Shown piece after piece: positions 5,614 to 9,790 of a stretch of DNA of 21,936 nucleotides. The stretch comes from a virus. Position 1 is the first letter of the stretch. Each line of letters starts with the position of its first letter. The notes beneath the pieces were generated by a model. That model saw only the letters and a list, made by a program, of their open reading frames with translations, was not told where the DNA came from and made no database searches. The stretch lies in the IMG/VR virus record IMGVR_UViG_3300005882_000540, positions 1 to 21,936 of that record; one strand, written 5' to 3'. The translations under genes and the position numbers were made by a program.

Positions 5614-6219
5614 ATGAATACAAAAGAGAACTACATGGAAGATGCAAAGGGTCGGCTTATCCCTGTCGAAAGCATCTCTCAGATTGACATGATGAAGCAT
5701 GAGTTTGTCATTGAAATGGTCAAGCGCGCCGCAGAAAAAAGCGAAGAGTTGAAGACCTTTAAAATGGCGTTGTTCGGCGATTTTAGTAGCTTTATCGAAT
5801 TGATTTACGAGCGCTACGGGCAAACCCTTGGCGGCAAGAAAGGCAATGTCACCGTGTACAGCTTCGACGGCGCTTACAAGCTGTCGGTTGCAGTACAAGA
5901 CCGCATTACCCTTGGCCCCGAATTGCAGGTGGCTGAGAAGCTCATCAAAGAGTGCGTGCGCGACTGGTCGCAAGGTGCGCGCTCAGAGTTAAAGACGTTG
6001 GTTGAGCGGGTATTTGAAACCGACAAAGAGGGCAACATCAATATCCGTGAGGTGCTGTCGTTGCGCCGTTACGAAATTGATGATCCACGTTGGCAAGAGG
6101 CTATGCAGGCAATTAGCGATGCCATCAATGTGGTTGGTAGCCGCGCCTACATGCGCTTCCACCGTCGCACGGAACGCGGTGACTACGAACCTATCTCGTT
6201 AGATTTCACCAAGGTATAA
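5614..6219 (+). CDS. DUF3164 family protein
   Basis: Protein of 201 residues matching the DUF3164 family typical of the early region of Mu-like phages. Recognisable parts are the N-terminal DAKGRLIPVESI, the FIELIYERYG segment, the central YSFDGAYKLSVAVQDRITLGPEL and the C-terminal YMRFHRRTERGDYEPISLDF. The function is not established; some databases mislabel the family as a sulfate transporter, but there is no membrane segment. The stop codon lies two bases before the first hammerhead ribozyme. A second ATG at 5635 is a possible alternative start. Confidence 0.88.
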   Translation: MNTKENYMEDAKGRLIPVESISQIDMMKHEFVIEMVKRAAEKSEELKTFKMALFGDFSSFIELIYERYGQTLGGKKGNVTVYSFDGAYKLSVAVQDRITLGPELQVAEKLIKECVRDWSQGARSELKTLVERVFETDKEGNINIREVLSLRRYEIDDPRWQEAMQAISDAINVVGSRAYMRFHRRTERGDYEPISLDFTKV

Positions 6220-6220
6220 A

Positions 6221-6276
6221 GCGAAACGCCCACTGGGCGTCTGCTTGGCGTGGCGGCCTTGCACTGATGAGCAGCC
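6221..6276 (+). ncRNA. type II hammerhead ribozyme, copy 1
   Basis: Circularly permuted (type II) hammerhead. GAA (6223-6225) leads into stem III, ACGCCC (6226-6231) paired with GGGCGT (6235-6240), loop ACT, so the invariant A15.1-U16.1 pair is present. C17 is 6241, giving predicted cleavage between 6241 and 6242. Stem I is TGC/GCA (6242-6244 with 6261-6263), a TT/TT internal loop, GGC/GCC (6247-6249 with 6256-6258), and loop GTGGCG. The core CTGATGA is 6264-6270. Stem II has two certain pairs (GC 6221-6222 with GC 6271-6272); an outer GGU/GCC helix (6213-6215 with 6274-6276) is possible. It sits between the DUF3164 stop and the next ribosome binding site (AGGGAG). Confidence 0.82.
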
Positions 6277-6297
6277 GATTTTACTAGGGAGAAACCA

Positions 6298-6924
6298 ATG
6301 GATTATTCAGCAGAAATTTACAAAGCAGTGCTCAAGGCCGTGCATGAGTTGGGGCCTTGCAGTTATAAGGCGATTCGCGAAACGCTCGACTTGGAAAAAG
6401 ACGAATGCCGCGACGTGACTGACTATCTTATTGAGCACGATTACCTTATTAAGTTGGGTAACTTGCAAATCAAGGTTGCGGCACGCGGTGAATCCACCTT
6501 GGAGCGTATGAGTCAGGGATTGGATGTTTTTGTTAGCGAAGATGAGCCTGAGTTTCACCAGGACGAAAAAGACGACAAGCATATCGACGAGCCTACGGCC
6601 GACACCGAAAAGCAAGAGGTCAAACCCCAATCCCCGGTACTAGGTACCGAATCATTTTTGGTCATGGGAAGCCCTTCTCGTAGTTGGGCTGAACATGAGT
6701 TAGCCCGCGCCCGCTCGGTACTTGCTGGCGATGAAGGTGTTGATTTCAACGCTGACATGGCTGTCGCGCGGGAGCGCCTTTACGTTTGCTCCCGGCAAGA
6801 ACTGGAGGCGTTGAGCACTGATGCCTTGCTAGGCCGAATTAACGCGTTTAACGAGCATTTAAAGCTCCTTAAAGACGTCGTTAACAGTCGTGTAAATCGC
6901 GCGTTTTTCCCATTGGCCAACTGA
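6298..6924 (+). CDS. hypothetical early protein with N-terminal winged helix
   Basis: Protein of 208 residues of no recognised family. Residues 1-60 resemble a small winged helix (AVLKAVHELGPCSYKAIRETLDLE, then VTDYLIEHDYLIKLG). An acidic, probably disordered linker follows (about 75-110, with EDEPEFHQDEKDDKH). The C-terminal part (120-205) is helical and charged. It is translated from a good ribosome binding site (AGGGAG) directly downstream of the first hammerhead, and is the first gene of the two-gene cassette enclosed by the ribozymes. A DNA-binding or regulatory role is inference from the winged helix. Confidence 0.78.
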   Translation: MDYSAEIYKAVLKAVHELGPCSYKAIRETLDLEKDECRDVTDYLIEHDYLIKLGNLQIKVAARGESTLERMSQGLDVFVSEDEPEFHQDEKDDKHIDEPTADTEKQEVKPQSPVLGTESFLVMGSPSRSWAEHELARARSVLAGDEGVDFNADMAVARERLYVCSRQELEALSTDALLGRINAFNEHLKLLKDVVNSRVNRAFFPLAN

Positions 6925-6931
6925 GGAACCC

Positions 6932-7402
6932 ATGATGGCAGAATCTACAAAAAGCCACTTAAACAGAACCGAAGAAGTCTCGCCTCAAGCCCGTATCGAT
7001 GAGCTTGAACGAGCCTGCATCGAGGCGTTTAAGTGGATTCAGGCTCGCTCACCAAACTATGTCTTGGACGTAAAAGACACGTTGATGATGGCAGTTTACG
7101 GCACCATCAACCCCAACGGTGAGACCAAGCCAAAGTCAGCAGGTACTGTTAAATCTAATTCGACCGCCGAATGCAATGCTGATGAAGCTAGCAAGGACAT
7201 GCAAGAGCTTGAGCCGTTCCTTGCTGTTTTAGACGCCATGAGCACTCGGCACCAGCGCTTGGTTGCCGTAGTTGAGCGCCACGAGAAAAATATGATTTAC
7301 CTTAACCACCGGGTTTTGAGCCTTGAGCTGGCCCACGAACTCAAAAAACCGTGGTACCAGAAGCTTTGGCGGTGGCTGACGAAACCCGCCCCTAAGTTGT
7401 AA
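6932..7402 (+). CDS. hypothetical early protein with C-terminal helices
   Basis: Protein of 156 residues without a recognised family. It begins with adjacent ATG codons (6932 and 6935), preceded by GAGGAA. Residues 20-50 and 90-140 are predicted mainly helical. The central 70-95 stretch is polar and low in complexity. The C-terminus is basic and tryptophan-rich (KKPWYQKLWRWLTKPAPKL), which could associate with membrane or nucleic acid; no full transmembrane segment is seen. It is the second gene of the cassette between the two hammerhead ribozymes; its stop codon immediately precedes copy 2. Confidence 0.75.
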   Translation: MMAESTKSHLNRTEEVSPQARIDELERACIEAFKWIQARSPNYVLDVKDTLMMAVYGTINPNGETKPKSAGTVKSNSTAECNADEASKDMQELEPFLAVLDAMSTRHQRLVAVVERHEKNMIYLNHRVLSLELAHELKKPWYQKLWRWLTKPAPKL

Positions 7403-7459
7403 GCGAAACGCCCGTTTGGGCGTCTGCCTAGCGTGGTTGTTAGGCACTGATGAGCAGCC
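7403..7459 (+). ncRNA. type II hammerhead ribozyme, copy 2
   Basis: Same architecture as copy 1. GAA (7405-7407); stem III ACGCCC (7408-7413) with GGGCGT (7418-7423), loop GTTT; C17 at 7424, so cleavage is predicted between 7424 and 7425. Stem I is TGCCTAGC (7425-7432) with GTTAGGCA (7439-7446), eight pairs including one G-U, loop GTGGTT. The core CTGATGA is 7447-7453. Stem II again shows GC (7403-7404) with GC (7454-7455); TTG (7397-7399) with CAA (7459-7461) could extend it across an internal loop. Stem I differs from copy 1 on both strands yet still pairs, which is covariation. The gemA ribosome binding site (AGAGGTG) lies just downstream. Confidence 0.83.
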
Positions 7460-7471
7460 AAGAGGTGCACA

Positions 7472-8032
7472 ATGAACAATAAAGCCAAGCTGATTCAGCT
7501 TATCCATGTGGCGAAACGCGACATGGGCTTGGACGATGACACGTATCGCGCAACGCTGAAAGGCGTTAGCGGCAAAGTGTCGTGCAAAGATATGAGTTTA
7601 AGCGAGCTTCATCAAGTGCTGGAGAACTTCAAAAAAACTGGCTTCAAAGTACGTACAAAGAAAGCTAAAAAGCGCATGTCACCACCCTCCAGCAAGCGTG
7701 TGCGAGTTGGTGAGATTAAGGTGATTCGCGCTGTATGGATTGATGCTGCCAAGGCTGGGTTGATAGCGGACAACTCGGAAGAAGCTTTGGATAAATGGGT
7801 TTACCGGATGAGCAAGGTTCGCCACGTCGGTTGGCTAGATGGTGATCAGGCTTATCGCGTCTTAGAGGCGCTGAAGAAATGGATTGTCCGCCTAATGGCT
7901 AAATGGCTTGATGAGCATTTAGGCACAAAATACGAAGAGAATTTGAAGGAAGTTGCTGTATCTTATGACCTTATGACGGAGCGCTTTGTGTTTGGGCGCG
8001 AAGTATACAGGGAGCGTCAAAATGCAAAATGA
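7472..8032 (+). CDS. gemA: GemA-like regulatory protein (Mu gp16 family)
   Basis: GemA/gp16 family protein of 186 residues. Family features are the N-terminal KAKLIQLIHVAKRDMGLDDDTYRATL, the SELHQVLENFKKTGF helix and the C-terminal half with KWVYRM and the WLDGDQAYRVLEALKKW region. In Mu, GemA affects host gene expression during the lytic cycle, but the mechanism is not settled. The gene directly follows the second hammerhead, and its last 11 bases overlap the Mor-type activator gene, the standard Mu arrangement. Confidence 0.9.
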   Translation: MNNKAKLIQLIHVAKRDMGLDDDTYRATLKGVSGKVSCKDMSLSELHQVLENFKKTGFKVRTKKAKKRMSPPSSKRVRVGEIKVIRAVWIDAAKAGLIADNSEEALDKWVYRMSKVRHVGWLDGDQAYRVLEALKKWIVRLMAKWLDEHLGTKYEENLKEVAVSYDLMTERFVFGREVYRERQNAK

Positions 8033-8435
8033 GTTATTTGAAGAAGATAAAAACCTTGATGAATTATTAAGCAAGGCCGAAGATATAGAGCTTGGTACCA
8101 CTGCATGGCCACAGACGCTGGCTGAGCTTGTGAGTATTTTTAAAGATGAAATGATGTCGGGTGCTGTTGCTCTTGATGAGGATAAAGCACTGAGTTTGGC
8201 CAAGCGCCTTGTTGCGCGACAAGCGCACCACATGGGCGGCCGCCAGTTTTATTTGCCACGGGATGAGCGGTTACGCAAAGCAATACGCGATGTAGAGATT
8301 TGGCAGCGCTATAACGGCCGAAATGTTGCTGAGCTACAACGAGAGTTCGATTTGACCGCGCAGCAAGTTTACGCCATTCTGCGCGAGCAACGTCAACTTG
8401 AGCGTGACCGCCGCCAAGCTAAATTGTTTGGATAA
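8022..8435 (+). CDS. mor: Mor/C-family transcription activator
   Basis: Transcription activator of 137 residues. In Mu, Mor activates the middle promoter and the related C protein the late promoters; only one member is present in this window, so it may do both. The dimerisation part is about residues 30-95 (WPQTLAELVSIFKDEM, GGRQFYLPRDERLRKAIRD). The helix-turn-helix is at 98-122 (NGRNVAELQREFDLTAQQVYAIL). I chose ATG 8022 because AGGGAG stands eight bases upstream; an upstream in-frame start at 7986 would add 12 residues inside gemA and lacks a binding site. Its targets may include the repeated element at 8879 and 17183. Confidence 0.9.
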   Translation: MQNELFEEDKNLDELLSKAEDIELGTTAWPQTLAELVSIFKDEMMSGAVALDEDKALSLAKRLVARQAHHMGGRQFYLPRDERLRKAIRDVEIWQRYNGRNVAELQREFDLTAQQVYAILREQRQLERDRRQAKLFG

Positions 8436-8441
8436 GGAGCT

Positions 8442-8900
8442 ATGATGGGATTTCGCGATGAATTTATCACTCCAAAAAAATCAGATTTTGATGCCGTTCA
8501 TCGGTTTAAAGCCGGATTGATAGGCATATTTTGGATGTTTCTCGGCTTGCTGATTTTTTACTGGATGGCGGTGCCCAGTAAAGCTGAGCGATTTGCAAAA
8601 GCAATGGATGATGATTGCTTTAAAAGCGCCTCCACGTTGGTCGGTTATGAAAATAGAGAGGCTTATGATTTCAAAGTGAGCTCAGTCTATCAACACAATC
8701 CAACGAGCCATACAGTTGTCGGGACCTTTATGTCTTTTACGCCAAGCATAGGCCTATATCATCGTTATTACTTTGTGTGTGATATAGAGCAGGACTATCA
8801 CCGTAGGCAGACGCTTACTGATTATGAAGTTCTAGCAACTAAGCGGCTATTTGAAAAACACATAAACAAACGCCACCTAGAAAGTAGCAAAACTCTTTAA
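8442..8900 (+). CDS. small membrane protein, unknown function
   Basis: Protein of 152 residues with one clear transmembrane helix at about 24-44 (AGLIGIFWMFLGLLIFYWMAV). A soluble domain of about 105 residues follows. Two cysteines (in DDCFKS and FVCDIE) might form a disulfide if that domain is periplasmic, but topology is not certain. AAGGAG precedes the paired ATG codons. It is placed where Mu has its C activator gene but is not a transcription factor. Its coding sequence looks more A/T-rich than its neighbours, so it may be an acquired accessory (moron) gene, for example for exclusion or envelope modification. Its last codons lie inside the 26-bp repeat. Confidence 0.75.
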   Translation: MMGFRDEFITPKKSDFDAVHRFKAGLIGIFWMFLGLLIFYWMAVPSKAERFAKAMDDDCFKSASTLVGYENREAYDFKVSSVYQHNPTSHTVVGTFMSFTPSIGLYHRYYFVCDIEQDYHRRQTLTDYEVLATKRLFEKHINKRHLESSKTL

Positions 8901-8904
8901 TCCC
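8879..8904 (+). repeat. 26-bp direct repeat, copy 1
   Basis: Exact copy of the sequence at 17183-17208, beginning AGAAAGTAGC and ending CTTTAATCCC. It contains a dyad AAAG-N10-CTTT and a -10-like TTTAAT (8896-8901). It overlaps the end of the membrane-protein gene and is followed after 10 bases by a hairpin. Confidence 0.9.
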
Positions 8905-8914
8905 CTCCTTTAAA

Positions 8915-8939: not shown

Positions 8940-8978
8940 GAACATTTTAAACTCCATCAATTATCTACAGCGCACAAA

Positions 8979-9019
8979 CCCGCCTCGCTTGTTAGCCAGG
9001 CAGGCGGGCTTTTTTTTTT
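8979..9019 (+). terminator. intrinsic terminator before the lysis genes
   Basis: CCCGCCT (8979-8985) pairs with AGGCGGG (9002-9008), followed by C and ten consecutive T (9010-9019). It should end early/middle transcription after the membrane-protein gene. The lysis genes begin only 14 bases later, so their promoter must lie downstream of it or the transcript must read through. Confidence 0.85.
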
Positions 9020-9032
9020 GCATGGGGGCGTT

Positions 9033-9455
9033 ATGAGTAATTTTCGCCTCAGCAAAACCAGTTTGTTGCGCCTTAAACAATGCCACCCACAGCTTTGTAT
9101 TGTGGTTACACGCGCTATTCAGATATGCGGCATTGATTTTATGGTTGGCTGCGGTATACGCACCATTGAAGAGCAGCGCGCCAATGTTGAGAAAGGCGTC
9201 AGTAAAACCCTTGCGAGCAAACATTTGCCCCAAGCCGACGGTATGAGCCATGCGGTGGATTTGTGGCCGTGGGTGAATGGGCGCATACCGTGGGAGGACT
9301 GGCCGGCCTTTGAAGAAATTGCTAAGGCCATGCTCACTGCCGCTGACGAGCTAGGTGTCAACCTGCGCTGGGGTGGCGACTGGAATCGAAACGGGCGAAG
9401 TGACGACGAACGCTTTCTGGATGGTCCTCACTTTGAGTTGGTGGGAGCGCTATGA
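9033..9455 (+). CDS. M15-family endolysin (L,D-peptidase)
   Basis: Peptidoglycan peptidase of 140 residues of the M15 (VanY-like) family, cutting peptide bridges of the cell wall at lysis. The zinc-binding signature is SKHLPQADGMSHAVD (62-76), supplying a His (64 or 73) and Asp76; the third ligand is His133 in GPHFEL. RTIEEQ (43-48) is the conserved helix of this group. The N-terminus lacks a signal peptide, so export would rely on the downstream holin-like protein. The ATG at 9033 has only a weak G-rich site (GGGGGCG); earlier in-frame starts would fall in the terminator's T-run. The stop overlaps the next start (ATGA). Confidence 0.9.
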   Translation: MSNFRLSKTSLLRLKQCHPQLCIVVTRAIQICGIDFMVGCGIRTIEEQRANVEKGVSKTLASKHLPQADGMSHAVDLWPWVNGRIPWEDWPAFEEIAKAMLTAADELGVNLRWGGDWNRNGRSDDERFLDGPHFELVGAL

Positions 9456-9790
9456 GTTTAGGTGCAATCAAACTACTACCACCAAATGTACCATCGCGCG
9501 GCTTTCACGGCTCGCGCAAGCGCTTCACAACCGGTTGGAACGACCGGCTTGCTGCTGAGTTTAACCGTCATTTAAAAGGCGCTCCCGTCGTTTTTAACAA
9601 TCCGTATGGCCCTGTTCATTTGGCAAATAGCTACCGCGCTGGGTGGAGTGCTGTAACCGATATGGACATTCGCCGCCTGATTTTATTGAACACCGCAGAC
9701 GCAAGCGAGCCACTGACTGGCAAGCGCCTGTTTGATGAAACCCGCCAACGCTTGTTTGGCAATGCTCGTGAGGCCCGTCATGTGGGATAA
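9452..9790 (+). CDS. hypothetical lysis-cluster protein
   Basis: Protein of 112 residues, unrecognised. It overlaps the endolysin gene by four bases and the next gene by eleven, so it is an integral member of the lysis cluster. It has no transmembrane segment, signal peptide or lipobox, so it is not an obvious spanin. The sequence (SYRAGWSAVTDMDIRRLILLNTADASEPLTGKRLFDETR) looks like a compact soluble domain. Small genes at this place are common in transposable phages, mostly without assigned function. Confidence 0.7.
   Translation: MSLGAIKLLPPNVPSRGFHGSRKRFTTGWNDRLAAEFNRHLKGAPVVFNNPYGPVHLANSYRAGWSAVTDMDIRRLILLNTADASEPLTGKRLFDETRQRLFGNAREARHVG

Follow-up and report, generated by a model that had tools for sequence, protein, structure and literature searches.

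Results

We analysed a 21,936-base IMG/VR record (the window) from a marine Mu-like phage. Its early operon starts with a repressor gene on the minus strand (1-840), a Ner-like gene (from 931), MuA (from 1284) and MuB (from 3525), and continues through regulators and a Kil-like gene (from 5328) to a DUF3164 gene (5614-6219, plus strand; PF11363, E = 6.1e-76). Downstream of DUF3164 lie, all on the plus strand, a first candidate hammerhead ribozyme (HHR1), two open reading frames (ORFs) of 208 amino acids (6298-6924) and 156 amino acids (6932-7402) without a Pfam or PHROG family, a second candidate (HHR2), and the genes for GemA (Mu gp16; 7472-8032; PF06252, E = 2.7e-35) and the Mor activator (7986-8435; PF08765, E = 1.1e-27). 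Repressor, MuB, DUF3164, GemA and Mor were recognised by Pfam and PHROG matches, and MuA by profiles together with its position; they stand in the order of Mu and mark this region as the early operon of a Mu-like transposable phage. HHR1 and HHR2 bracket the two ORFs between DUF3164 and GemA, and both are in the sense of the operon.

Two type II hammerhead matches in the window

The original prediction had named one type II hammerhead after the DUF3164 gene of a Mu-like phage, with all hammerhead elements in circularly permuted order at 6221-6276, and had proposed the Rfam covariance model as a check. That model, RF02276 (Hammerhead_II), matches 6219-6280 (plus strand) over its full length with 61.8 bits (E = 7.5e-11), against a gathering score of 37 bits, and each element is where it had been placed. 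GAAA occupies 6223-6226; stem III pairs ACGCCC (6226-6231) with GGGCGU (6235-6240); C17 is at 6241, within a GUC cleavage site; stem I pairs 6242-6249 with 6256-6263, the predicted "internal loop" being a tandem U-U mismatch; CTGATGA spans 6264-6270; and stem II consists of two pairs (6221-6222 with 6271-6272). The prediction had missed HHR2 (7401-7463, plus strand), so HHR1 is not the sole copy; HHR2 is likewise a full-length match and outscores HHR1, with 67.0 bits.

In both ribozymes the catalytic core (CUGAUGA, GAAA, and C17 beside the A15.1-U16.1 pair) is complete, and sequence and model alignment give three stems, of which I and III are closed by loops and II is open, the type II permutation. 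Cleavage after C17 is predicted between 6241 and 6242 in HHR1 and between 7424 and 7425 in HHR2. The core pattern occurs twice on the plus strand of the window, compared with once in 500 Markov-1 randomisations searched on both strands. Rfam gave no other credible RNA family in the window (snoU54, at 22.1 bits, is below its own cut-off), and a tRNA search of the window found none.

The two-pair stem II had been seen as the weak point of the prediction. The pair count is right, but a stem II of two pairs is common in this class, where it is backed by a pseudoknot between loop I and the 3' tail (Perreault et al. 2011, PMC3088659). This pseudoknot is present in both plus-strand copies: in HHR1, loop I UGGC (6251-6254) faces GCCG in the tail (6274-6277), and in HHR2, loop I UGGU (7434-7437) faces GCCA (7457-7460). 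The HHR1 strands and the HHR2 loop are placed by sequence and pair counts, the HHR2 tail by sequence.

We assessed covariation over 44 distinct relative sequences and 20 proposed pairs. Standard pairs fill 96.7% of the pair cells (84.1% when shuffled), and 13 of the 20 pairs are altered on both sides, compared with 6.9 in shuffled sets; none of 500 shuffles reaches 13. The covariation score of 0.39 collapses in slid controls, to at most 0.08. The pseudoknot (UGGY with GCCA or GCCG) is paired in 97.7% of cells across the 44 relatives and is compensated by double changes at two pairs, in records L025 (A-U) and L087 (C-G). Nearly all core columns are invariant, U7 being variable, and the invariant bases of the ribozyme are mostly those of the hammerhead core. 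Compensatory changes in the stems and the pseudoknot indicate selection on RNA pairing rather than on DNA identity. Covariance model, pair covariation and gene context agree in supporting the assignment of HHR1 and HHR2 as type II hammerhead ribozymes, the class originally proposed for the first of them.

Stem I of HHR1 carries two U-U mismatches, and a competing fold is predicted: the minimum free energy (MFE) structure of HHR1 is not the hammerhead. Calculated without the pseudoknot, the hammerhead stems lie 3.2 kcal/mol above the MFE in HHR1, and 1.2 kcal/mol above it both in HHR2 and in the median relative. Of the two copies, HHR1 is predicted to cut more slowly. We also considered whether cutting frees the downstream ribosome binding site (RBS), and rejected this idea because the predicted effect is small: upon cleavage, the predicted unpaired probability of the start region goes from 0.53 to 0.59 on average, and in the window from 0.60 to 0.61 and from 0.57 to 0.59.

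A fixed slot between DUF3164 and GemA

We surveyed relatives in two ways, with partly overlapping sets: (i) by protein, searching whole IMG/VR records that contain a DUF3164 relative with RF02276; and (ii) by ribozyme, using a DNA pattern scan. In the first survey, 44 of 115 records were positive (batches of 13/40, 23/40 and 8/35), and the addition of Chromohalobacter YPCBV-1, the Vibrio phages ZX4290 and martha 12B12, and the window gave 74 matches in 48 records. All 74 are on the sense strand, with none elsewhere in these records. Wherever a record has both markers, every match lies between the DUF3164 stop and GemA, an interval that on average makes up 13.5% of the locus. L003 has no detected DUF3164, and its ribozyme is upstream of GemA; L065 and L075 are without GemA in the record, and their ribozymes are downstream of DUF3164.

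The pattern scan returned at least 137 hammerheads on at least 116 loci; an alignment of GemA had been dropped as a scan query because it was too diverged. Among the matches listed, Mu-like early genes lie on the ribozyme strand in 113 of 116 loci, and the hammerhead is between DUF3164 and GemA in 103 of 103 cases with both markers, upstream of GemA in 25 of 25 where DUF3164 is missing, and downstream of DUF3164 in 4 of 4 where GemA is missing; the three remaining loci show no marker within the examined stretch.

The ribozyme is dispensable in many lineages, given that 71 of the 115 records are without one and that 47 loci without a type II hammerhead (including 4 reference phages) contain no other Rfam self-cleaving ribozyme above the cut-offs. 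On a tree of 116 DUF3164 proteins, the ribozyme label needs about 15 changes, compared with a mean of 34.8 if shuffled, and at least 10 are forced by well-supported branches; because DUF3164 may itself be swapped, such counts reflect ribozyme events imperfectly. They point to repeated gains or losses, always within the DUF3164-GemA slot.

Two records have additional RNA features. L083, a Mu-like phage without a hammerhead, has an sRNA-Xcc1 match (RF02221, 63.9 bits) between GemA and Mor (8826-8908, plus strand), and the hammerhead of L032 (4132-4230) has a long stem III insertion that itself holds an extra CTGATGA.

Cassettes change while both ribozymes are retained

Paired ribozymes enclose cassettes of one or two genes whose identity changes; the kinds include a DUF2786/DUF7168 protein, a 138-aa family, Idiomarina-type families and others. 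Cassette genes are replaced with both ribozymes and their flanks retained, and the breakpoints are at the ribozyme edges. Between L055 and L064, the cassette ends are 0.51 and 0.50 identical, which is what an end-to-end alignment of unrelated sequence gives; HHR1, HHR2 and their flanks, in contrast, are 0.81-0.94 alike. L025 and L027 differ by one gene: its stop codon borders HHR2 in L027, and in L025 HHR2 is bordered in the same way by the stop codon of the other gene. Similarity resumes at the ribozyme edges in both of these pairs, and in L061/L071 and L092/L093.

The 208-aa ORF of the window was considered as a conserved partner of the ribozyme and rejected, as a pattern scan gave just one further IMG/VR relative; it has distant kin in Idiomarina-type cassettes. 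Among the paired-ribozyme cassettes compared, both window ORFs (6298-6924 and 6932-7402) have relatives only in other Idiomarina-type phages.

The exchange of cassettes raises the question of whether the ribozymes are kept chiefly as DNA recombination joints, as about 65 bp conserved at cassette borders through which homologous recombination would exchange the cassettes, with cutting being incidental. Homology that returns at the ribozyme edges in four record pairs would fit such a role, as would the 76-92% likeness (clade averages) of the copies within one phage and the plasticity regions of P. aeruginosa Mu-like phages, for which a shared flanking target was looked for and not found (PMC4378225). 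However, the compensatory changes described above reflect selection on RNA pairing and not on DNA identity, and the invariant bases are mostly hammerhead core. Moreover, same-slot copies are more alike between phages than are copies within one phage (one slot of one clade is equal), so we see no evident gene conversion between copies, and we found concerted evolution of within-phage copies to be unsupported. We therefore judge recombination to be an unlikely main reason for keeping the ribozymes, and favour processing of the mRNA at the cassette borders.

Stop codon, ribozyme and start codon are closely spaced

The original prediction had put the ribozyme between a stop codon and the next RBS, an arrangement that both copies display. 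The model match of HHR1 begins on the last base of the DUF3164 stop codon TAA (6217-6219, plus strand), and the next start codon follows 18 nt past HHR1. Similarly, the TAA of the 156-aa ORF (7400-7402, plus strand) shares the first two bases of HHR2, whose tail GCCA runs directly into the Shine-Dalgarno-like AGAGG of GemA (7461-7465, plus strand); GemA starts 9 nt past HHR2. As the predicted cut falls 22 nt past the upstream stop and tens of nucleotides before the next start, both ORFs would remain intact.

Across the 74 matches, the distance between the upstream stop codon and the ribozyme is -2 to +5 nt in 65, and in at least 60 the next start codon is no more than 30 nt away. Six of the seven exceptions inspected have an ORF that starts at most 2 nt past the ribozyme end, without its own Shine-Dalgarno sequence. 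In L055, L061, L043, D3112 and DMS3, the start codon is 1-2 nt past the second or only ribozyme and is not preceded by a Shine-Dalgarno sequence of its own, and the RBS, if any, sits inside the ribozyme core.

Such spacing would also suit a switch that is gated by translation and turns off the downstream gene, in which ribosomes at the stop codon and the RBS mask the ribozyme so that it cuts only at low translation. The frequent abutment of the stop codon on the 5' strand and the subset with an immediate start codon, which includes D3112 and DMS3, are in line with a gate. However, compaction of phage operons alone would yield the same layout, so abutment is no proof of a gate, and one type II hammerhead had a cleavage rate above 1 per minute in 0.5 mM Mg2+ (PMC3088659), which may outrun the ribosome. 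We consider a gate improbable and cleavage at the cassette borders the better account.

Ribozyme number varies. In the Idiomarina phages and many relatives, two or three ribozymes flank a cassette, and one could imagine that they free the cassette RNA, which a ligase such as RtcB would then close into a circle, to serve as a circular mRNA or a regulatory RNA; hammerhead ends do suit RtcB-like ligases. We think this very improbable, because only one ribozyme is present in about half of the positive records and because a search by Perreault et al. for spliced or circular products was negative (PMC3088659).

Host prophage and laboratory phages

The DUF3164 protein of the window has a 100% identical counterpart in a prophage of Idiomarina loihiensis SN11, and the two hammerheads of that genome (2.9 Mb) are both inside this prophage. 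Spread across the host genus was rejected: 1 of 26 genomes searched had a hammerhead, which indicates that the hammerhead follows the prophage. The nearest phage record is L090. It carries an identical HHR2, its HHR1 differs by one extra base in loop III, and the ORFs between the ribozymes have diverged from those of the window, with segments lost or gained. The mismatches and competing fold of HHR1 might suggest inactive remnants or chance matches, but we give this little credence in view of the E-values of 1e-11 to 1e-12, the covariation, and the retention of both ribozymes in L090 despite its changed cassette ORFs.

A ribozyme in the early operon had been described as absent from the Mu paradigm. 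This is so for the early region of coliphage Mu, where RF02276 found no type II hammerhead in the first 11 kb, but not for D3112 and DMS3. D3112 (L256) has one type II hammerhead at 9439-9510 (66.2 bits), which begins on a stop codon and is immediately followed by ATG; this segment is matched by 123 phage records, including DMS3, JBD30 and MP22. The ribozyme lies at about 8950-9021 in DMS3 (NC_008717) and about 9394-9465 in JBD30 (JX434032). In D3112, DMS3 and JBD30, all of them well-studied P. aeruginosa transposable phages, it is immediately 5' of the ORF preceding GemA, with predicted cuts at 9471/9472, 8982/8983 and 9426/9427, respectively, and it is absent from the annotations of all three. 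RNA-seq data for DMS3 infection are public (PRJEB31514; PMC8027618). Coliphage Mu (L255) has an annotated semi-early promoter just 5' of gemA (8151-8217), at roughly the position of the last ribozyme in the ribozyme phages; either element could make GemA-Mor a separate message.

Discussion

Hammerheads, including type II, are known in bacteria and phages, as the original prediction had noted; the type II class, its pseudoknot and its clustering around prophage genes were described by Perreault et al. in 2011, who also found that a triple prophage array was cut in E. coli (PMC3088659). The strongest ribozyme-gene associations are with Mu-like phage genes, according to the summary of Roth 2014 and Weinberg 2015 in PMC10085705, and the function of hammerheads in bacteria and phages has been described as open (PMC6155905). 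With the type II class and its Mu-like phage association already published, the present analysis adds four points: the constancy of the slot, a survey made in both directions, the cassette borders, and the ribozymes of D3112 and DMS3. We found none of the four in the literature that we read, which covered Roth 2014 and Weinberg 2015 through the summary in PMC10085705.

We propose, with a probability of about 0.6, that the two cis-acting ribozymes cut the early mRNA at the cassette borders and thereby give it constant, protected ends. Each ribozyme would fold upon transcription and cut the polycistronic RNA after C17 (6241/6242 and 7424/7425), leaving a 2',3'-cyclic phosphate end and a 5'-OH end. 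The upstream mRNA would end in the stem III hairpin, and the downstream mRNA would start with the stem I hairpin, followed by a constant leader and the RBS. The upstream transposition genes, the cassette and GemA-Mor would then be mRNAs that are translated and decay separately, with ends independent of the neighbouring cassette. We infer both cleavage in the cell and this insulating effect from the covarying motif, its fixed strand and slot, its intercistronic placement against the stop codon, and the exchange of cassettes at the edges of retained ribozymes, all of which count for a role in mRNA processing. The mismatches and competing fold of HHR1, the many ribozyme-free relatives and the small predicted opening of the RBS are the weak points of such a role.

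A broader and more tentative proposal is that transposable phages use type II hammerheads as standard boundary elements of a slot for gene exchange, as a natural counterpart of RiboJ. If so, any cassette entering the DUF3164-GemA slot would be cut out of the early mRNA, the core genes flanking the slot would keep constant RNA ends and expression, and a RiboJ-like part would have been overlooked in the annotations of D3112 and DMS3. The survey narrows the question of hammerhead function to one slot in one operon and ties the ribozymes to exchangeable cassettes, and the rule of stop codon, ribozyme and RBS predicts cuts between ORFs. As the widely used phages D3112, DMS3, JBD30 and MP22 carry one ribozyme, its purpose is now testable.

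The bacterial and prophage hammerheads of RF02276 (PMC3088659) share with those of the window the same permutation and core, the two-pair stem II and the pseudoknot between loop I and the tail. They too occur in several copies, placed around single genes or short gene blocks. According to Perreault et al., the identity of these genes varies; it does so here as well, but the DUF3164-GemA slot is constant. Roth 2014 and Weinberg 2015, in the summary given by PMC10085705, linked hammerhead and twister ribozymes to Mu-like phage genes, which is the same genomic association as the one found here. RiboJ parts, which are built on a hammerhead, serve to normalise the 5'-UTR, and all except one reach 84-94% cleavage (PMC7536230). 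RiboJ (PMC7536230, citing Lou et al. 2012) likewise combines a hammerhead and a hairpin to give a uniform 5' leader before the RBS; however, it is engineered and placed after promoters, whereas the phage ribozymes are natural and lie between operon genes. Of a RiboJ-like insulation, in which cleavage would make downstream expression independent of upstream sequence, the analysis shows the constant leader and the exchange of cassettes, and the predicted opening of the start site is small. The theta ribozymes of gut phages (PMC10879173) are also small, self-cleaving and found at fixed places in phage transcripts, but they have an HDV-like fold and lie at tRNA 3' ends, whereas the phage hammerheads described here lie at gene borders.
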